Assembly: GCF_002499975.2 (NCBI RefSeq)
Contig: NZ_CP052766.1
Coordinates: forward strand, 2,418,001 to 2,482,000
Source: Alteromonas pelagimontana
Lineage (GTDB): Bacteria; Pseudomonadota; Gammaproteobacteria; Enterobacterales; Alteromonadaceae
Length of the DNA: 64,000 nucleotides
Direction of reading: 5' to 3'
Below, in pieces: positions 26,362 through 36,338 of the stretch (positions within the stretch are counted from its first letter, which is position 1; every line of letters begins with the position of its first letter). The notes below the pieces were generated by a model. That model was not told the origin of the DNA. It made no database searches and saw only the letters and a list, made by a program, of their open reading frames with translations. Position numbers and translations under genes: made by a program.

Positions 26362-26958
26362 TTAGTCTTCATGTTTTACGATTTCTATTATTAAAGACTT
26401 TATTGCTTCCCATTTTCCAAATGCATAGATGCGGTTATTAATAACTTCTATTTTTCTTACATTTCCGGTCATGTCATTATTGCTGGCGTAAGTTCTACCA
26501 TCCATAGCTGACAGAAAACTTGACCGACTCGCTAATATATAATTGTTTTCGGGATCTTCGTAAATCGGGAATACGGACTGATAACCATTTGCGCCCATAA
26601 TTGAAGTGTCGTGACAAAGGTTACCTTTATTTGAATCGTACAATATAACAAAGTACCTATTAATATCGGGGAATATATCGGACTCCTTTTTAATCCAAAA
26701 TTTAATACTTTCATTAACTTTTAGACTTTTAAAGTTCTCAACGCTTTTAGCAGTGACTAGCAAGCCACAATCATCTACTCGTTCTAAGCTAGAAATTCTG
26801 GAATTTTTAGCTTCTGCTTTAACGTCAGACTTTGTGCACTCGCATACACATTTAGGCTTGTAAACATAAAAATAATAAGAAATAAGCGCTTCGTAATATA
26901 ATCCTAAAAAACTGTTCGTAAATGCGCTACACATGAAAAGGCACAACGAGTACATCAT
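26362..26958 (-). CDS. Small cysteine-containing island protein, copy 1 (divergent, 5' end disturbed)
   Basis: Up to 198 codons. The C-terminal ~150 residues match the three copies at 28.4-30.5 kb by pattern: CGLLVTAKSVENF, FWIKKESD, YFVILYD, a second Cys, SVFPI, ILASRSSFLSAMDG and IYAFGKWE. The N-terminus differs: a hydrophobic stretch then KPKCVCECTKSDV, a CxC motif the others lack. The first 15 or so codons lie in an inverted-repeat element next to the IS3 insertion, so the original start may be lost or lie downstream. Function unknown; see the module findings. Strongly AT-rich. Confidence 0.6.
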   Translation of the reverse strand: MMYSLCLFMCSAFTNSFLGLYYEALISYYFYVYKPKCVCECTKSDVKAEAKNSRISSLERVDDCGLLVTAKSVENFKSLKVNESIKFWIKKESDIFPDINRYFVILYDSNKGNLCHDTSIMGANGYQSVFPIYEDPENNYILASRSSFLSAMDGRTYASNNDMTGNVRKIEVINNRIYAFGKWEAIKSLIIEIVKHED

Positions 26959-27024: not shown

Positions 27025-27138
27025 TAGTGACTTCGTCATGACTCATACTATGGGAACAGTTATTTTGTAGTGGCATAGTTAATTTGGCCACCTAATTAGA
27101 GCTGCTATGATAGCAGCATAACAAAGTTAGGTGACAAA

Positions 27139-28341
<1,203 letters not shown>

Positions 28342-28412
28342 CCACTACACATTGTCATTTTCGAACCATGCGCTGAAAACCTATGACCAAACCGAATATT
28401 ATGACCATCCTA

Positions 28413-28931
28413 TTATTCTTCAAGTAACGCTTCCTCAAGCTCCGACCACTTTCCCAACGCAAAGATACGTTGATCGATGACTTGTAGCATTTCTACGAAT
28501 CCAACAGAATAATAACTTATTGTATCATTGCTTGACATGAAGCTTTCTCTATACGCTAACACATACATCTTTCCATCATAACTCCTAAAAGGGAAAAATG
28601 TTTGAAAACCAAGGCTAGTGCTAAGTACAGCGTTATCACAATGAATCTCTTGTTGTCTCTCTGATAGAAATGCCAAATATTTCTCACTGTCTATGAGCAG
28701 CAAGTCCTTCTCATTAAGAACCCAAAATTGAAAAATTTCATCTTTCCCTTTAAAAGTTTTTAACGGTTTTGCTGTGACAAGCTGACCACAGCTTTGGCTT
28801 GAGTCAATCTCTAAGATTTCTACCACTCCAACGTAATCTGAATATTTAAATTGAGTTCTGAGGGTCATACCCAATGTTAAGGAGTAACTGTTAAAAGCAA
28901 TAAGAAGTAACGAAAATATTAAATATTTCAT
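28413..28931 (-). CDS. Small exported two-cysteine protein, copy 2
   Basis: A 172-residue protein with a signal peptide (MKYLIFSLLLIAFNSYS). Mature features shared with copies 3 and 4: YSDYVGVVEILEI, CGQLVTAKPLKTFKGKDE, a second Cys (IHCDN), FFPF, RESF and an IFALGKW end. Copy 2 and copy 3 are near twins. The pattern SDxxGVV...VxxxxFKG resembles the OB-like core of netrin/TIMP-type domains, which is only a suggestion. A decayed peptidase relic ends at its start codon (TAATG overlap). Unknown function; likely periplasmic. Confidence 0.7.
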   Translation of the reverse strand: MKYLIFSLLLIAFNSYSLTLGMTLRTQFKYSDYVGVVEILEIDSSQSCGQLVTAKPLKTFKGKDEIFQFWVLNEKDLLLIDSEKYLAFLSERQQEIHCDNAVLSTSLGFQTFFPFRSYDGKMYVLAYRESFMSSNDTISYYSVGFVEMLQVIDQRIFALGKWSELEEALLEE

Positions 28932-29333
28932 TATTTTATCCCTAAGATTTTGAAAGCGGAGGCATTTGCCTGAAATTCATGCTCAAGTCCGTCGAGATGA
29001 GATTTTTAACGCACAATAGAAAACTTAGCGAAATTTTCTGCAGACTAGTCAACGTTGTCATCCTCTATCAGGATTTTTTAAAATATTTTTGCACGAGCAT
29101 ATGTTATTATTTTTTTGCATTATAATCCATTATACCTAGTGATAGATAATCATCAATGTATCTTTAATAATACAAATCTAGAGCTTACTGTTCGGTATCC
29201 AGTGCCGAATTGAGAATCAAATTTACTATGGGCGCCAACAAAATCCCCGCATCGTTTAAACTAGCTTCAGCTAAATAAATACTGATTCGTGTTTATTGGA
29301 TATTAGCACATCTAATTCAGATGGTATCTCACC
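28931..29333 (-). pseudogene. Relic of a peptidase gene upstream of copy 2
   Basis: Translating the minus strand gives broken pieces that match the intact peptidase gene at 30.5-30.9 kb: GEIPSELDVLIS...VF near 29333 against GLTPELDVPIP...VF, an LNDAG segment against LNKAN, and, at the 3' end, HLDGLEHEFQANASAFKILG against HLEAGDQEFQADKFALEKLG. Several stops and frameshifts lie between, and the HEIGH motif is lost. The relic stop codon overlaps the copy 2 ATG by one base. This accounts for most of the otherwise empty 470-bp gap here. Confidence 0.6.
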
Positions 29334-29400
29334 TACTTAATTCTAGGATATCTGGATTACACAACAATGAACCATTTAGTTAAATATTAAGTCCAGAATA

Positions 29401-29913
29401 TTATTCATCATGTAACGCTTCCTCAATATCCGCCCACCTTGCAAACGCATAGATACGTTCATCTATGACTTGTAACACTTCTACGAATTCACCAGGGAAA
29501 TAGCTTACCGAATCACTAATTGCTAAAAAGCTTTCTCGATTTGCTAATATATATAGCCTTCCGGCATCCTTAAAAGGGAAAAAAGTTTGCTTACTATCGC
29601 CGGTACTCAGTAAAGTTTTACCACATTGAGTGACTTTTTGACTCTCCCTTAAAATAGCAAAATATTTGTCACTGTCTATGAGCAAGTCCTTCTCATTGGG
29701 AACCCAAAATTTTAAAATATCATCTTTCCCTGTGAAAGTTTTTAACGGTTTTGCCGTGACAAGATGGCCACAGCTTTGTTTCGGTTCAATATCTAAAATT
29801 TCTACCACGCCAGCATAATCTGAAAATCTAACTAGAATGTCGAGAGTCATATTCAAACTCATTGAGTAACTATTAAAAGTAAAAAAAAGTAAGATGTATA
29901 TCGTGTATTTCAT
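29401..29913 (-). CDS. Small exported two-cysteine protein, copy 3
   Basis: A 170-residue protein with signal peptide MKYTIYILLFFTFNSYS and the same blocks as copy 2: FSDYAGVVEILDI, CGHLVTAKPLKTFTGKDD, FWVPNEKDLL, second Cys (TQCGK), TFFPFKD, ANRESFLAISD and IYAFARW. High similarity to copy 2 suggests recent tandem duplication. Its ATG abuts a peptidase relic stop (TAAATG). Probably periplasmic; unknown function, possible inhibitor or immunity protein. Confidence 0.7.
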   Translation of the reverse strand: MKYTIYILLFFTFNSYSMSLNMTLDILVRFSDYAGVVEILDIEPKQSCGHLVTAKPLKTFTGKDDILKFWVPNEKDLLIDSDKYFAILRESQKVTQCGKTLLSTGDSKQTFFPFKDAGRLYILANRESFLAISDSVSYFPGEFVEVLQVIDERIYAFARWADIEEALHDE

Positions 29914-29990
29914 TTATAATCCTAAAGCTTAAAATGCATCAGTATTAGCCTGGAATTCTTCTCCACGGCCATTAATAAATGGGGGGGAAT
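29914..29990 (-). pseudogene. Short peptidase relic upstream of copy 3
   Basis: The minus-strand translation reads GRGEEFQANTDAF, an in-frame stop, then ALGL and a stop directly abutting the copy 3 ATG. It matches the C-terminal EFQAD...ALEKLG of the intact peptidase at 30526. Only the last ~20 codons remain recognisable. Confidence 0.5.
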
Positions 29991-30008
29991 TTTAATAAAT
30001 TTTTTATA

Positions 30009-30524
30009 TCAAAATTTCAATAAATCTTTCTCAATATCCTTCCACTTTCCAAATGCATATATTTTATTATCGACAACTTCAACCAGCTTTACATATTTAA
30101 AAGGATAGTAGCCACTATCACCGTCAGCTGCCATAAAGCTTTTTCTTGAAGCTAGTATGAATTTATCGCCAATGTCCTTAAAAGGAAAAAGGGTCTGGTA
30201 GTCTTTAAAGGTACTTAGAATATTTTGACCACACGTATCTGATTGCGGCTTCTCGTACAATATCGCAAAATAGTTTTCAACACCCGACATTAAATCAACT
30301 TCATTTGTGACCCGAAACTTAAATTCCTCATCGATACCTTTGAAAACTTTTAAGGGCTCAGCGGTGACTATATAGCCACACATTTCACTTTTTTCGATGT
30401 TAACAACTTTGACAACACCAGTAAAATCTGAATGCCTAACCAAAGGTTCTAAAGCAATTTTCTCAACTTTTGCTTGAGTTTCTAACGTAACGAAAAGAAG
30501 TATTAATAAAATGTATTTAATCAT
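30009..30524 (-). CDS. Small exported two-cysteine protein, copy 4
   Basis: A 171-residue protein starting at the ATG 30524 (MIKYILLILLFVTLETQA, signal peptide). Mature blocks: HSDFTGVVKVVNI, CGYIVTAEPLKVFKGIDE, second Cys (DTCGQN), TLFPFKDIG, ASRKSFMAADGD and KIYAFGKWKDIE. More diverged than copies 2 and 3. It is the only copy whose upstream peptidase gene is still largely intact; the peptidase stop lies one base before this ATG, indicating translational coupling. The pairing suggests a functional link. Confidence 0.75.
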   Translation of the reverse strand: MIKYILLILLFVTLETQAKVEKIALEPLVRHSDFTGVVKVVNIEKSEMCGYIVTAEPLKVFKGIDEEFKFRVTNEVDLMSGVENYFAILYEKPQSDTCGQNILSTFKDYQTLFPFKDIGDKFILASRKSFMAADGDSGYYPFKYVKLVEVVDNKIYAFGKWKDIEKDLLKF

Positions 30525-30525
30525 G

Positions 30526-30933
30526 TTACCAACCCAGTTTTTCAAGAGCGAATTTATCGGCTTGGAATTCTTGATCCCCAGCTTCGAGATGACCAATTTC
30601 GTGCATAATAACAAACAGCGCATGTTGTTCTGAGGACCATGTAAAGCGTCTGCCTCCAATAAAACTAATAAATTCCTTCGCAGCGCCAGCATAGACCATT
30701 ATTTTATTTAATTGATCATCCGCTAAGCCATTTATAGGTATATAGCTGTTATCCCAATTTTTAACCACAAATTCAATAGCCTCTTCTTCAGCATCGAATT
30801 TCTCAAGCGTAGATTTTATTCCTTTTCCATCAGAATTAACTTTTATAGCAGCAAATTGATCAGAAGGAAGTACCCTCGAATACCCCATTAATAGATTTGC
30901 TTTGTTTAAGGTTGATATAGCTGAAGCAAACAC
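30526..30933 (-). CDS. Small HExxH metallopeptidase-like protein, partner of copy 4
   Basis: A 135-codon frame from GTG 30933 ending HALFVIMHEIGH, then LEAGDQEFQADKFALEKLGW. HEIGH supplies two zinc His and the catalytic Glu; the Glu of EFQAD is a plausible third ligand, an arrangement recalling ImmA/IrrE-type (M78-like) zincins with a very short spacer. Reading upstream of 30933 continues with a GGLTPELDVPIPINCD segment that is also found in the relic at 29.3 kb, so coding extends upstream and the true start is not 30933. A single-base shift in a G5 run at about 30980 may separate it from the small frame at 30975-31085. Confidence 0.6.
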   Translation of the reverse strand: MFASAISTLNKANLLMGYSRVLPSDQFAAIKVNSDGKGIKSTLEKFDAEEEAIEFVVKNWDNSYIPINGLADDQLNKIMVYAGAAKEFISFIGGRRFTWSSEQHALFVIMHEIGHLEAGDQEFQADKFALEKLGW

Positions 30934-30974
30934 GACATCACAATTGATCGGTATTGGTACATCCAGTTCAGGTG

Positions 30975-31085
30975 TTAATCCCCCTTTGGCAACGGGCCAA
31001 GTAAGTCTGTTAACGATTGGGGATCGCTGAGAACATAGTTAATGGCAAAGCACCTCATTGTGCAGAATTGCCGTGGGAATTTCAT
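30975..31085 (-). CDS. 36-codon frame, possible N-terminal part of the peptidase
   Basis: MKFPRQF... ending LLGPLPKGD, with AAGG about 10 bases before the ATG at 31085. One extra G in the G5 run at 30980-30984 would fuse it in frame (…LGPLPKGG then LTPELDV) to the peptidase, giving about 186 residues. Alternatively it is an unrelated short peptide. No signal peptide is visible. Confidence 0.35.
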   Translation of the reverse strand: MKFPRQFCTMRCFAINYVLSDPQSLTDLLGPLPKGD

Positions 31086-31101: not shown

Positions 31102-31482
31102 TCAGCGCCGCTTTATTAGGTTGTGTAGTATAAGTTCGAAAGCTAACACAGCGAAAGAAAATGCTGAAGCGTAAAATATTCCAAAAATGAAAGCTAAGCT
31201 TCTTCCTGCATCATTTGTTACAGCATCCATGGCACTTTCTTGCTCACTAGTTATCTCTTCGCCAGTGAAAAATCCATCATTATTCAAATCATAAAGTGAT
31301 AGTGAGTAATCTAAGTATTGTGTATAAATAAACGCCAGAAAAATATGAATAAAATAAAATACAGTAAAAGAAACAAAATACAGCGTTCGTTTACTATTTG
31401 AACTTCTTTTTTTCCTATATATATATACTGAAAAAATAGAAAATACAAAACTCATGATAGGGATTGACATTCCGGCTTCCAT
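31102..31482 (-). CDS. Hypothetical membrane protein with an EF-hand-like loop
   Basis: A 126-residue protein I do not recognise. Three hydrophobic segments (about 4-23, 33-54 and 94-118) surround a polar stretch with DLNNDGFFTGEE, a canonical 12-residue EF-hand calcium loop pattern (D-x-N-x-D-G-x-x-x-x-E-E). Such single loops occur in bacterial calcium sensors and dockerin-like proteins. It lies 17 bp upstream of the small frame ending the peptidase module and on the same strand. Role unknown. Confidence 0.5.
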   Translation of the reverse strand: MEAGMSIPIMSFVFSIFSVYIYRKKRSSNSKRTLYFVSFTVFYFIHIFLAFIYTQYLDYSLSLYDLNNDGFFTGEEITSEQESAMDAVTNDAGRSLAFIFGIFYASAFSFAVLAFELILHNLIKRR

Positions 31483-31686: not shown

Positions 31687-32208
31687 TCATTCCCCATTAG
31701 CAGTTTTACATTCTGACAAAAACTCTCTCACCAGAAACGTTTCTTTCAGTGAAGTAATCTTATATTGCCATTTATCCCTATTAGAAAAATCGGAAACAAA
31801 AGTCGGAAGCGTTTTCTCATCTCCAATATAGATGAGGTTCATCCAGATACTACCTCTTATAGCTCTAACACCATAAGAGGATATTCTTAAATTTTCAATG
31901 TTCTCACATAATATCGCCTTTTTGAAATCATTAGAAATTATGAATTCAACTTTCTCTACAAACTCTTCCTCATTATTTACTTGGTAGGTAGCGCCCTTAT
32001 ATTCATATGAAATAGGAAATGAAATTTTACTTGCCAAGTCAGCATAATCCTCCTCTTTAATATTTCTCTGTATAGAGAAAAAAAACTCTTCAAACTCAGA
32101 TTCATTATCAATTCCCGCTACTTCATAGCGGCTTTTTTCCTCTGCATAAGTTGACAAAGAAAAAAATTGAAGTGATATGGTGAAAGCGATAACTTTCCAA
32201 AAGATCAT
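31687..32208 (-). CDS. Exported hypothetical protein
   Basis: A 173-residue protein with a signal peptide ending STYA|EEK. The mature part (EFEEFFFSIQRN, EDYADLASKISFPISYEY, a Cys, YGVRAIRGSIWMNLIY) has the look of a small secreted NTF2-like or cystatin-size domain, but I do not recognise a family. The ATG at 32208 follows AGGAG by seven bases. The frame continues upstream through an 8-bp simple repeat, which would add an unlikely N-terminal extension. Confidence 0.6.
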   Translation of the reverse strand: MIFWKVIAFTISLQFFSLSTYAEEKSRYEVAGIDNESEFEEFFFSIQRNIKEEDYADLASKISFPISYEYKGATYQVNNEEEFVEKVEFIISNDFKKAILCENIENLRISSYGVRAIRGSIWMNLIYIGDEKTLPTFVSDFSNRDKWQYKITSLKETFLVREFLSECKTANGE

Positions 32209-32217
32209 GGGTACACT

Positions 32218-32257
32218 CCTGTTTCCCTGTTTCCCTGTTTCCCTGTTTCCCTGTTTC
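32218..32257. repeat. 8-bp simple sequence repeat upstream of the exported protein gene
   Basis: GTTTCCCT repeated four times plus part copies at both ends (40 bp), ending 10 bases before the start codon of the minus-strand gene and adjoining its ribosome site. The unit length is not a multiple of three. Confidence 0.9.
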
Positions 32258-32901
32258 AAATAGGGCTATTTAGTCAGCTCTTCTATCCTCTAGTCCTCGT
32301 CTCACTACCCCCCGCTAATCTAAATTCTGCCCATTCGTTTTTTTGCTTTTGACCTCGAATTCGGATAATCAGTGCACCATTCATTATTAAACGGTAAAAG
32401 AGATAAATTGCCTGTAGGTGGTACTCTATAGTCGCCGAACAAATAGAAGTATATACCATGAGTTACAAGCGGTTGAGCGAAGGGCAACGATACCAGCTCT
32501 AAGCTTATTTGGTCCAGGGATCCAGCTACCGGGAGACTGGGAAGCGGTTGGGAGCTGACTTTGGGGGGATGTGGTAAGGTAGTTGAAAGGATGGGCGTCA
32601 GTACCAATGACGTCATTCAAAGAAGAGAGGCAATGTCGACTAAGCCTTGGCTTTTCGAGCCTAATCATTTCTGGTCTGAGCTACAGAGTTGAAACTGTAG
32701 ACGTTGCAATTAACCTCTTCATCGACATAGCATTAACGCTGGGGCACTGTCGCCTTACCACCTGGCAGATCAAAAAAATCATTCTCCTTCCTATTAGCGC
32801 CTGATTATTGTCGGAATAATTATATGCTGCGTAAGTCACTCAATACTTGCTCTACCTGCCCGAATTCGTTCTAATAACGTCAATATTGATAGGAAGTTTC
32901 T
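32258..32901. other. Degenerate gap at the right edge of the island
   Basis: About 640 bp without an intact gene. It holds the IS30-like relic at 32458-32526 and otherwise short frames with no family features. The base composition returns toward that of the flanking DNA here. Confidence 0.5.
32458..32560 (+). pseudogene. IS30-type transposase N-terminal relic
   Basis: MSYKRLSEGQRYQL then a stop, followed in the next frame by AYLVQGSSYRETGKRLGAD. Together these match the start of IS30-family transposases (MSYxxLTExQRYQI, then a helix-turn-helix with GxSxxEIAxxLG). No transposase core follows. Confidence 0.5.
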
Positions 32902-33759
32902 ATGACCTTTTTTTCCCGAATATGCTTTTTGCTTGGGCTTTGCTGTGGGATCGGTGGCTGTGCAATTGACGTTAGTTCTTCCAGTTACATTTACCAGACC
33001 AGTGCGCCTTCCCCTCTAGATACAACCGAATTACTGCAAGCCGTAAATAAAGATGAAGCGGCGGTTTCTATAACAACCGTTGAATTGACTAACGCGCAAG
33101 GCCTGACATTAACGGGAGTTGCGGTTTCTTATCCAAAGCCTGTCGTAAACATTGTATTTTATGCCGGCAATGGAATGACCATCAGCAAAGCCTCTGGCAT
33201 TTTGCATGAATTTGGGAAAATTCCCGCTAACATATTGTGGATTGATTATCAGGGTATGGGCGCAAGCGCTGCCGCACCCAGAGTGCTGGTAGATAATTTA
33301 AAAGCCGACGCGTTACAAGTGTTCGATTATGGCAAAGAAGTATTTCCAAAAAACATTCCCACCATAGTTCACGGGTTAAGTATGGGAAGCCTATTTGCTA
33401 CTTATGTTGCCAATAAAAGAGAAGTGGACGGCGTAGTGCTCGACAGTGCCATTAGCTCGGTTTCTGATGTGGCTCAAAATCTTGTGCCTCAATGGACAAA
33501 AGTTTTTACTAACTTAAAGATATCGCCTGAACTGGCAATTATTGATAACAGCGAATATCTGGCGAGATATAGAGGACCTTTGTTAATGCTGGTGGGAGAC
33601 CGCGATCAAATGACGCCCATTTCCTTTAGTCGCGAGTTGTTTCGCCAATCCGCAAGCACGAATAAATCGATTTATGTAGTGTTGGGCGGTAAACACGGTA
33701 AATTGATGCGCAACGAGGCAGCAGTTATTCGTTATCAAACATTTATAGAAACGCTGTAG
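32902..33759 (+). CDS. Alpha/beta-hydrolase, probable lipoprotein
   Basis: A 285-residue alpha/beta-hydrolase-fold protein. The nucleophile elbow reads HGLSMGS, with acid Asp in VGDRDQMTP and His in GGKHGKL near the C-terminus. The N-terminal hydrophobic segment ends in GIGGCAID, a plausible lipobox, so it is probably anchored in the envelope. AGGAAG lies upstream of ATG 32902. It is similar in layout to BAAT/YfhR-type hydrolases of unknown substrate. It borders the island, followed by a convergent GNAT gene. Confidence 0.85.
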   Translation: MTFFSRICFLLGLCCGIGGCAIDVSSSSYIYQTSAPSPLDTTELLQAVNKDEAAVSITTVELTNAQGLTLTGVAVSYPKPVVNIVFYAGNGMTISKASGILHEFGKIPANILWIDYQGMGASAAAPRVLVDNLKADALQVFDYGKEVFPKNIPTIVHGLSMGSLFATYVANKREVDGVVLDSAISSVSDVAQNLVPQWTKVFTNLKISPELAIIDNSEYLARYRGPLLMLVGDRDQMTPISFSRELFRQSASTNKSIYVVLGGKHGKLMRNEAAVIRYQTFIETL

Positions 33760-33868
33760 CTTAAACTAAAGGAAACAGGAATAAGGAAGAATATTCCCAT
33801 TCATCGGGAAAGCGTGACGCCGCCCGGAAGCTTATGTAGAAATTTTAGAGCCTGCAGAAGTCCTTAAT

Positions 33869-34405
33869 TTATCTGTGCTTCCCGTTAACTAAAGAGGTAA
33901 GAACATGGTCCTCCCACTGCCCATTTATCTTCAGATATTTTCTCGCAAAGCCCTCTTTTACAAAACCTAATTTGCGCAATAGTTCCTCCGAACGCCGGTT
34001 TTGCGGCATATAATTAGCCATTATTCGATTGAGGCATAAATCGTCAAAAGCGTAGTTGATGGCCTGTTTACACAGTGCTTGCATCAATCCTTTTCCTTCG
34101 TATGGCGCCGATACCGCATATCCTATATTACATGCCTGAAAAGGACCTCTTACGATATTGGTTAACGCGCAAATCCCAAGCACCTCAGTGTTGTTAGCAA
34201 TAATGAAGTAGAAGGCACTCTTCGATGCTAAACGTTTCTTCCAAGCTTCCACGAAATGGTGGTCCTCGTTTCTGCGAGGTTCCCACGGACGTAAATGTTC
34301 TGTATTGACTTTATAGAACGAAGAAATCGCTTCGGCATTATCAGGTGATGCTAGTATTGCTTCCATGCGGTTCAACAGCCACTGCCTAGCAGGTGGCGAA
34401 GACAC
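33869..34405 (-). CDS. RimJ/RimL-type GNAT acetyltransferase
   Basis: A 178-residue GNAT of the ribosomal-protein-alanine acetyltransferase type: TEHLRPWEPRRNEDH in the N-terminal part, IGYAVSAPYEGKGLMQALCKQ as the acetyl-CoA loop and NRRSEELLRKLGFVKEGFARKYLKING, quoted in pieces as NRRSEELLRKLGF and GFARKYLKING. Probably RimJ (N-acetylates ribosomal protein S5) or a related enzyme. The start is GTG at 34405. Confidence 0.85.
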   Translation of the reverse strand: MSSPPARQWLLNRMEAILASPDNAEAISSFYKVNTEHLRPWEPRRNEDHHFVEAWKKRLASKSAFYFIIANNTEVLGICALTNIVRGPFQACNIGYAVSAPYEGKGLMQALCKQAINYAFDDLCLNRIMANYMPQNRRSEELLRKLGFVKEGFARKYLKINGQWEDHVLTSLVNGKHR

Positions 34406-34436
34406 TTTGACAACTCTAAATTACTGGTTCAAAAAA

Positions 34437-34673
34437 CTACCGCATTGAAAGAAGTTGACGCGGTTTAAGGTTCATCTGCTCTTCCATTTTTTCAATTTTG
34501 GAAACCAGTCGTTCATTGGATACATTAACCTTATCCACACGGTTTTGCAGATGATTGACTTGTAAACTTAAGGCTTCATTGTTGTCGTTAAGCTTGTCCA
34601 TCACTGCAAACTGAAGCGCGATGACCGTAACAAAGGCGGCTGAAGCCGCAATATTTTTGGCGAGTTTTTTCAT
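34437..34673 (-). CDS. Small membrane-anchored coiled-coil protein
   Basis: A 78-residue protein: one N-terminal transmembrane helix (about 9-26) followed by a heptad-rich stretch (LSLQVNHLQNRVDKVNVSNERLVSKIEKMEEQ, given here by its ends LSLQVNHLQNRV and IEKMEEQM) likely to coil. The ATG at 34673 follows AAGGA by five bases; the frame is open to 34700. No family recognised. Confidence 0.55.
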   Translation of the reverse strand: MKKLAKNIAASAAFVTVIALQFAVMDKLNDNNEALSLQVNHLQNRVDKVNVSNERLVSKIEKMEEQMNLKPRQLLSMR

Positions 34674-34799
34674 ACTGTTCCTTGTTTGATGTTTGTTCAA
34701 TCCTAATAAAGTTGACGGTTAATTTCACTACCAATCACACAATACAACCCTGAAACGAGCCTAACATGGCCCGTTTCAAAGTAACGTACTTTTAAGCGA

Positions 34800-36338
34800 T
34801 CAATTAAGTGCTACCACCACTACAGATTTTGCTGGCAACTGAACTTGATTGGCTTTGGCAGTAAACTGCTTTGGCGCAACCACACTTTTTTGTTTAAAAG
34901 TGTTTTTATCAGTGATGGCGTCACTGGTGAGGATTCTGCCGGTCAGTTTTGATACTTTCTTGCCGCTAAGATCTAATGTCACTTTAGCTTCTTCGGTGGG
35001 ATCAAGATTAACTAACGCGAGGTAGGTTTTGCCGTCTTTTCCCTTAGCCAGAGAAGCCGTTACTGCTGGCAGCTTTTCACCGTCTACGACGTAATCATCA
35101 CTCTCAATGGTGAATGGAATCGAGGTGGAATCCTGAAACACCTGATAGAGATCGTAAGCGTAGTAGGTGGGAGTAAGCAGCATATCTTCGCCATCGGTTA
35201 ACACCATGGCCTGTAGCACGTTCACCATTTGGGCAATGTTAGTCATGTGTACACGTTCAGCATAATCATGAAAAATATTGAAGTTAACTGCGGCAACCAC
35301 GGCATCGCGAAGAGTATTTTGCTGATAAAGAAAACCCGGTTCCTTTCCTTCTTCGGCGTCGTACCATGTACCCCATTCGTCAACATAAAAACCTAACTTG
35401 CCTTCAGGATCGTTTTTATCCAGTTTGGCGATGTTATCTTCTAAGTACTTATCCATTCGCATAGTACGTTCAAGGGTCTTAAACCACATGTTATTGTCAA
35501 ACTCTGTGGCACTGCCTTTTTCCTTCCATTCGCTGGTGGGTAAGGTATAGAAGTGGTAGCTGATGCCGTCCATATTGCTATCAATATTGGCGCTAAGTAC
35601 ATCTGTCCATTGCGTATCTTCAGTATGACCACCACTCGCTACCAGTTTAGGCATTTTCCCTGGAGGCGTTTTCATAAAGGTTGCGTACTGGCGATAAAGA
35701 TCAACGTAATACTGCGGACGCATATTGCCACCACAGCCCCAGGACTCATTTCCTATTCCAAAATAAGCGATATCCCAGGGTTCATCGCGACCATTTTCAC
35801 GACGTTCATTGGCGAGGGTGGAATTCTTGTCGGAGGTCATATACTCCATCCATTCCGCCATTTCCTGCACAGTGCCGCTACCAAGGTTGCCGTTGATATA
35901 AGCATCTGCACCCAGTAGTTCAACAAAGTCGAAAAACTCATGAGTGCCTACGGCATTATTTTCTTCCACTCCGCCCCAGTGGGTATTGACTTTGATTGGC
36001 CGCTTGTCCTGCGGACCGACCCCTTCCCGCCAATGGTATTCATCAGCGAAGCAGCCACCAGGCCAGCGTACCAAGGGCACATGAATAGCCTTTAATGCAT
36101 CCAGCACATCATTACGGAAGCCTTTGGTATTGGGAATAGGTGAGTCTTTGCCTACCCAAATTCCCTCATAAATGCCACGGCCAAGATGTTCGGCAAACTG
36201 ACCATAAATATCTTTATTGATAACCGGACCGGTTTTACTTAAATCGGCGGTTATTACTACTTCATGAGGTTTGGCCCAGGCGGCACTAACGATGAGCGCG
36301 GAAGATAAAATCGTTCCGGCAATAATACGTAATTTCAT
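34800..36338 (-). CDS. Secreted GH51 alpha-L-arabinofuranosidase
   Basis: A 512-residue exported GH51 enzyme that removes terminal alpha-L-arabinofuranose from arabinan or arabinoxylan. Signal peptide ends AWA|K at about 22. The family's acid/base Glu is E198 in GIGNESWGCGG and the nucleophile E321 in FYVDEWGTWY; RWPGGCFADEYHW at about 91 is the usual substrate loop. Length and the C-terminal beta-domain fit the family. It is 9 bp after the GH43 gene at 36348 and so second in a minus-strand operon, divergent from the endo-arabinanase gene. Confidence 0.97.
   Translation of the reverse strand: MKLRIIAGTILSSALIVSAAWAKPHEVVITADLSKTGPVINKDIYGQFAEHLGRGIYEGIWVGKDSPIPNTKGFRNDVLDALKAIHVPLVRWPGGCFADEYHWREGVGPQDKRPIKVNTHWGGVEENNAVGTHEFFDFVELLGADAYINGNLGSGTVQEMAEWMEYMTSDKNSTLANERRENGRDEPWDIAYFGIGNESWGCGGNMRPQYYVDLYRQYATFMKTPPGKMPKLVASGGHTEDTQWTDVLSANIDSNMDGISYHFYTLPTSEWKEKGSATEFDNNMWFKTLERTMRMDKYLEDNIAKLDKNDPEGKLGFYVDEWGTWYDAEEGKEPGFLYQQNTLRDAVVAAVNFNIFHDYAERVHMTNIAQMVNVLQAMVLTDGEDMLLTPTYYAYDLYQVFQDSTSIPFTIESDDYVVDGEKLPAVTASLAKGKDGKTYLALVNLDPTEEAKVTLDLSGKKVSKLTGRILTSDAITDKNTFKQKSVVAPKQFTAKANQVQLPAKSVVVVALN

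Follow-up and report, generated by a model that had tools for sequence, protein, structure and literature searches.

Organization of the array

This study concerns a 64,000-nt stretch of the Alteromonas pelagimontana genome (4.31 Mb, single contig; NZ_CP052766.1, positions 2,418,001-2,482,000), hereafter the window, in which three diverged copies of a small, exported-looking protein, here called the partner, each lie directly downstream of an open or decayed copy of a sequence encoding a putative HExxH peptidase. All of these features are on the minus strand and are listed in the 5′ to 3′ order of that strand.

30526..30993, minus strand: HExxH peptidase domain (HEIGH...EFQAD); open frame, homologous to the C-terminus of an Rhs protein, with no carrier in front
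30009..30524, minus strand: partner copy 3; open reading frame (ORF) of 171 aa; predicted immunity protein that by eye looks exported and may be NTR/TIMP-like
29914..29976, minus strand: peptidase relic 2; last ~20 codons only
29401..29913, minus strand: partner copy 2; ORF of 170 aa
28931..29333, minus strand: peptidase relic 1; frameshifts and stops, HExxH gone
28413..28931, minus strand: partner copy 1; ORF of 172 aa

The initial annotation's coordinates for the open peptidase frame and the three partner ORFs agree with the ORF list, and its reading of a tight stop-to-start coupling is borne out by the window sequence: the junctions read TAACATG, TAAATG and TAATG, and at all three the peptidase stop lies within one base of the partner start. 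Identity to copy 3 is 39% for copy 1 and 45% for copy 2, and all three copies begin with what looks by eye like a signal peptide. Two cysteines, 49 and 98 in copy 3 numbering, are the only ones invariant in the alignments. The ratios of nonsynonymous to synonymous substitution (dN/dS) for pairs of partner genes were 0.34, 0.52 and 0.24, which points to purifying selection; the estimate is rough, dS was finite in three of the six pairs and it exceeded 1 in two of these. Genome-wide, A. pelagimontana contains four partner matches, the fourth being a damaged copy described in the last section.

The open peptidase frame was called at 30526-30933 from a GTG at 30933. Its reading stays open to 31038, and homology reaches upstream to about 30993, past the GTG, which is probably not the true beginning. 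Since by eye no credible start codon lies far enough upstream to take in all of the homology, the open frame most likely represents a C-terminal piece, a headless remnant without a start of its own; neither a signal peptide nor a credible start was seen by eye.

The other two modules retain less. Relic 1, aligned to the open peptidase with frameshifts allowed, scored 66 (highest of 12 shuffles, 28), and blastn gave E 4e-9 in a three-sequence comparison, so that the relic proposed in the initial annotation at 28931-29333 stands. The second proposed relic holds for its end only: against the open copy alone it scored 26, below the maximum of 35 in 40 shuffles and thus not significant, whereas with relic 1 added as a reference it scored 51 (0/500 shuffles), with the similarity limited to about the last 20 codons. 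Since both relics exceed their shuffles, relic 2 once relic 1 is included, the pattern in which the peptidase decays and the partner is kept is real.

Homology to an intact Rhs-linked pair

The function of the array is best approached through a distant relative of its peptidase. In a search of 395 genomes of the family with a longer peptidase query, the sole match below E 0.001 beyond the own genome was in a genome designated G752 (E 3.9e-6), where it sits in an open frame of 2376 aa (L083:3441-10571) that begins with a signal peptide by eye and has SpvB, FG-GAP, TcdB-middle, RHS-repeat and Rhs-core matches. The peptidase-like part forms the extreme C-terminus of this protein, separated from the Rhs core by a long linker. 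It is 28-31% identical to the window peptidase over nearly the whole domain (pairwise BLASTP 1e-10; score 114 against 54 for the best of 2000 shuffles), and the two domains share HExGH, EFQA[DN] and a GG-LTPE start. The window peptidase is therefore strongly homologous to an Rhs protein tip, and it is most likely the displaced tip of a much larger toxin, a point that the initial annotation had missed.

In G752, the stop codon of the RHS gene and the start codon of the following gene overlap as ATGA; the product of that following gene is also exported-looking and is 23% identical to the partner (E 0.001 in a single comparison). With the first 18 residues removed, no shuffle in 2000 reached its score against copy 3 (61, maximum 60) and 8/2000 reached that against the Salinimonas partner described below; the corresponding counts were 51/2000 for copy 1, 118/2000 for copy 2 and 148/2000 for P0007, a relative of the fourth copy. 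We take this protein as a distant homologue of the partner because similarity, position and a shared CG motif coincide. A partner-like gene thus lies directly downstream of the toxin domain at three junctions in the window, one in Salinimonas and one in G752. The initial annotation had called for orthologous pairs elsewhere; a homologous pair, distant on the partner side, was found intact in G752, and one with the peptidase decayed in Salinimonas.

From the homology of the G752 tip and the partner-like gene overlapping its stop, we read the pair as an Rhs toxin tip with its immunity gene. The locus is very probably an array of orphan modules derived from an Rhs-type polymorphic toxin, each originally comprising a C-terminal HExxH toxin domain and an immunity gene; the Rhs carrier is absent from the window, which makes the window peptidase copy an orphan. 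The suggestion that the partner protects against the peptidase, made initially from coupling and peptidase loss, is now well supported by the G752 Rhs tip and the overlapping downstream gene, which occupies the usual place of an immunity gene. Protection is thereby supported by an intact pair that is independent of the array.

Several observations weigh against this interpretation. Only one intact Rhs-linked pair was found. Of five partner family members compared with the G752 neighbour protein, three resemble it only weakly, and a profile comparison of partner and neighbour, at P 0.0013, put the probability at just 19%. The single-sequence structure model of the peptidase, at a predicted local distance difference test (pLDDT) score of 37, predicts no fold. 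The A. pelagimontana genome has no Rhs core match. Just upstream of the window peptidase, a stretch resembles the end of an Rhs core, NYVLSDPQSLTDLLG with SYVLNNPMSYTDPSG, but it lies in another frame and is only suggestive: over 41 residues, 7/500 shuffles reached the score, against 1/500 for a 20-residue piece chosen afterwards and 3/100 for the comparison as DNA. The references were 30 core loci, a few of whose segments were badly chosen, and the DNA test used the 28/30 with a positive motif score. Hidden Markov model (HMM) searches did not detect this stretch, and nothing Rhs-like precedes relic 1 (25/100 shuffles) or the Salinimonas relic (50/100).

In favor of the array reading, Rhs cores occur elsewhere in the genus, in 31/59 genomes, and several resemble short displaced tips. 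Several genomes (L038-L067) carry rows of short Rhs-core tips ~1 kb apart (G613:C33, G621:C6, G654:C12), an arrangement typical of displaced toxin arrays.

By eye, the final codons of the toxin at six junctions contain a Shine-Dalgarno-like purine run a short way ahead of the partner start, which copy 4 has lost; the run reads AGGA, AGGG, GGAG or AAGG, and at the open copy a weaker GGG. The toxin ends may have survived as a ribosome-binding leader for the partner, a role to which this run points and which would explain their persistence. The partner's function might then have nothing to do with the peptidase, the toxin 3′ end being merely a leader and the tandem copies a hitch-hiking duplication. 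Such a reading suits relic 2, whose kept part is exactly the stretch with the Shine-Dalgarno-like run, and the weak homology of some partner copies to the G752 neighbour. We nonetheless consider it unlikely, since in both Salinimonas and G752 the peptidase domain is immediately followed by a partner-like gene, which in G752 stands behind an intact toxin in the standard immunity position. Under the toxin-immunity reading, the array suggests how immunity genes outlive their toxins, in that a leftover toxin end may double as a ribosome-binding leader.

Relatives in other genomes

The partner is very rare outside A. pelagimontana within the genomes and databases searched. Counting the own genome, scans found it in 1/246 family genomes, 3/59 genus genomes and 3/395 family genomes, and the coordinates of the two non-own matches correspond to loci of Salinimonas profundi and of the S. 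iocasae plasmid NZ_CP039853.1 (L011 and L012). The two copies are identical, as are the loci over 516 nt plus 461 nt upstream, and we counted them as one. A further contig scan returned one locus, from S. profundi. A six-sequence partner profile matched six proteins in the protein database, two of them (P0003 and P0007) from outside this genome; searched singly against the same database, copy 3 and the peptidase each matched only themselves.

The Salinimonas partner is 48% identical to ours and is directly preceded by a decayed copy of the window peptidase (score 71; highest of 12 shuffles, 34), whose stop lies one base ahead of the partner start (by eye). Loss of the peptidase with retention of the partner thus extends to a second lineage. 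The setting of the Salinimonas partner suggests mobility. Just downstream of it lies a gene annotated in L012 as a tyrosine recombinase (L012:16394-17365; same relative place at L011:9394-10365), and genes for an RES-domain protein and an Xre antitoxin are annotated nearby in L012. Among viral contigs, phages and plasmids, nothing was found beyond the S. iocasae plasmid.

The peptidase matched 2/369 genomes of the class, own included; the second match lies inside an ATP synthase gene and is a chance match. Extending the longer query to E 0.1 gave 18/395 family genomes: the own genome, G752, the two Salinimonas relics and 14 others at E 0.009-0.098. Eleven of these 14 had loci that were re-examined, and HExxH was present only in L075, which looks by eye like an ordinary M78-type protein. 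Another, L070 (genome G708), is 38% identical to the last 52 peptidase residues and interrupted by two stops; that it is a further peptidase relic is possible but unproven, and no partner was found behind it (12/100 shuffles reach the score).

Fold and family of the two proteins

Neither the window peptidase, the partner nor the G752 toxin domain matches Pfam or NCBIfam above a curated cut-off. Around its HExxH the window peptidase has weak matches to M78 (E 0.01) and M48 (E 0.1) in Pfam, to the PADLOC peptidase_U41 model (E 0.0011) and to the PHROG metallo-protease phrog_87 (E 0.0036), and the G752 domain to Pfam DUF3810 (E 0.018, below cut-off) and in PADLOC (E 0.015). A zincin, defined by its fold and by HExxH with a third ligand, is a tentative assignment; HExGH and EFQA[DN] are conserved in the two homologues. 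The Tox-MPTase1-5 families discussed below gave no match in Pfam, in which we presume their models to be present.

Membership of the M78 family, a check suggested initially, is not sustained, as the match reaches 16 bits against a gathering score of 22 and spans 23 residues. A cytoplasmic pair, whether toxin-antitoxin or regulatory of the ImmA/IrrE (M78) type, has this short match below the cut-off as its point in favor. A partner that starts with a signal-peptide-like stretch (by eye) does not fit such a pair, and the RHS context of the peptidase elsewhere, at the end of a much larger protein, largely refutes it; we regard it as extremely improbable.

The structural model of the partner, of moderate confidence, has as its best matches N-TIMP-3, TIMP-1 and agrin NtA, at 10-14% identity in these rows, and favors an NTR/TIMP-like fold without settling it. 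Sequence profiles add little: partner matches were weak and scattered (Kelch at E 0.24 in Pfam; NCBIfam E 0.026 for copy 4; PHROG E 0.046; PADLOC E 0.013 and up for the Salinimonas copy), and a search of solved structures by sequence gave matches only at E 0.19 or worse. Pfam searches yielded no TIMP or NTR profile, either for the four copies (E up to 5) or for the Salinimonas copy (E up to 10); the HMMER filters used drop most weak matches. In a mature TIMP, the first residue is a zinc-chelating cysteine, part of a CxC. The partner alignments contain no N-terminal zinc-binding cysteine. The partner resembles the animal TIMP and NTR domains in its structural matches and differs from them in its 10-14% identity, in lacking that cysteine and in having only two invariant cysteines. 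The netrin/TIMP-like fold proposed at the outset survives as the assignment favored by the model; the CxC motif does not.

A TIMP-like partner next to an HExxH protease has a published precedent in Listeria, where a metzincin is paired with a TIMP-like protein and the authors report having found no record of TIMP-like proteins in bacteria (Boichis et al. 2021, PMC8235301). The idea that a bacterial zincin with a TIMP-like antagonist would be new is accordingly diminished. As described there, the Listeria pair (Mtz-Tim) resembles ours in that an HExxH protease gene is directly followed by a gene for an exported, TIMP-like protein (here by model). It differs in that Mtz is a secreted metzincin with a signal peptide and the extended motif, whereas our pair is tied to an RHS protein, and in that Tim is a lipoprotein cleaved by Mtz; the pair is not described as toxin and immunity.

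This precedent, together with the stop-to-start coupling of the two genes and the TIMP-like structural matches of the partner, would suit a free-standing secreted protease with its own regulatory inhibitor, as in Listeria Mtz-Tim or Pseudomonas alkaline protease/AprI, and no interbacterial toxin. We find this distinctly unlikely. By eye, the peptidase frame lacks a signal peptide and a credible start, and its homologue forms the end of an RHS protein. Metzincins are marked by a Met-turn and the extended motif HExxHxxGxxH/D, and this motif is absent by eye from both HEIGHLEAGDQ and HEQGHGLGFQA. Repeated loss of the protease with the inhibitor kept would also ill suit an inhibitor lacking another target.

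Proposed function and related systems

We propose that each module once paired an HExxH peptidase domain, the C-terminal toxin part of an Rhs protein, with an immunity gene just downstream. The toxin half has decayed in all modules but one, the Rhs carrier being missing even there, and the predicted immunity half is kept. The Rhs protein of a neighboring cell would carry the peptidase as far as the cell envelope or through it; outside the cytoplasm, the exported partner would bind and block it. Additional diverged partner copies may cover toxin variants. Zinc catalysis, toxicity, a periplasmic site of action, direct inhibition and defence against non-self toxins are the steps that we infer for this scheme.

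A more specific version is that an NTR/TIMP-fold immunity protein inhibits an RHS zincin toxin by wedging into the active-site cleft as animal TIMPs do, without the zinc-chelating N-terminal cysteine. We hold this only tentatively, as a possibility somewhat on the doubtful side. If it were true, bacteria would employ protease inhibition by the NTR/TIMP fold in microbial warfare, a use either independent of the animal one or older than it, and the array would amount to a stock of inhibitors for different toxin variants. The TIMP-like fold, if correct, would be the second bacterial case beside an HExxH protease after Listeria Tim, and the first as an immunity protein among the matches listed in the literature searched, which covers few subscription papers and lists no report of a TIMP- or NTR-fold immunity protein. 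It would also make testable whether NTR-fold protease inhibition arose outside animals.

Metallopeptidase tips are known from RHS proteins. Zhang et al. (2012, PMC3482391) describe Tox-MPTase1-5 as RHS-linked C-terminal metallopeptidase toxins, and the G752 protein, ending in an HExxH domain, resembles Rhs/YD-repeat toxins with such tips. In the survey rows examined for Tox-MPTase1-5 a dash stands where other rows name an immunity family. Our case differs from those rows in that an immunity protein is proposed and the domain falls below all Pfam and NCBIfam cut-offs; an RHS peptidase tip unrecognized by curated models is now linked to a concrete candidate immunity protein.

A functional parallel is the antibacterial C-terminal peptidase of VgrG2b, which Wood et al. 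(2019, PMC6899460) describe as killing from the periplasm; it is neutralized there by PA0261, an exported protein that depends on the disulphide-forming system. As in that Tpe-Tpi system, an HExxH peptidase stands beside a gene for an exported, cysteine-containing immunity protein (here predicted). The VgrG2b carrier is a VgrG of the type VI secretion system, not an SpvB/RHS protein as for the window/G752 pair, and the likeness is one of description.

Islets of orphan immunity genes have also been reported, as AID clusters and SAIDI-1 (PMC7400221). Our array resembles these in keeping immunity genes without a working toxin and is unlike them, as they are described there, in comprising several diverged copies of one family with the decayed remains of the toxin attached.

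The fourth partner copy and neighboring genes

Two further features lie on the copy 1 side of the array.

26362..26958, minus strand: ORF with damaged partner copy 4; frameshifted near its N-terminus, with no original start visible; carries the CxC motif
27066..28349, plus strand: IS3-family insertion element; two ORFs (transposase matches) and 26-nt terminal inverted repeats; separates copies 1 and 4

No target-site duplication was seen by eye at the IS3 element 27066-28349. In copy 4, the N-terminal sequence of the partner family continues in a different reading frame. Upstream of this copy, no trace of a peptidase relic was detected (103/300 shuffles reach the score). Its relative P0007, 79% identical over residues 39-183, is full length with a normal N-terminus and has no CxC. 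The initial annotation had assigned a CxC motif to copy 1; the motif is absent from copies 1-3 and occurs in copy 4 only, within the frameshifted stretch, which indicates that it is not a feature of the partner family.

No tRNA or Rfam family was found in the window. Just upstream of the peptidase, 31102-31482 (minus strand) encodes a small membrane protein by eye and 31687-32259 (minus strand) an exported-looking protein, neither with a family above cut-off; the latter product has three weak matches across the 58 other genomes of the genus. These two genes could be further orphan immunity genes. Beyond them, a synteny query covering 32902-35400 found matches in 36/59 genus genomes (own included), the non-own ones partial and at 64-77% identity.

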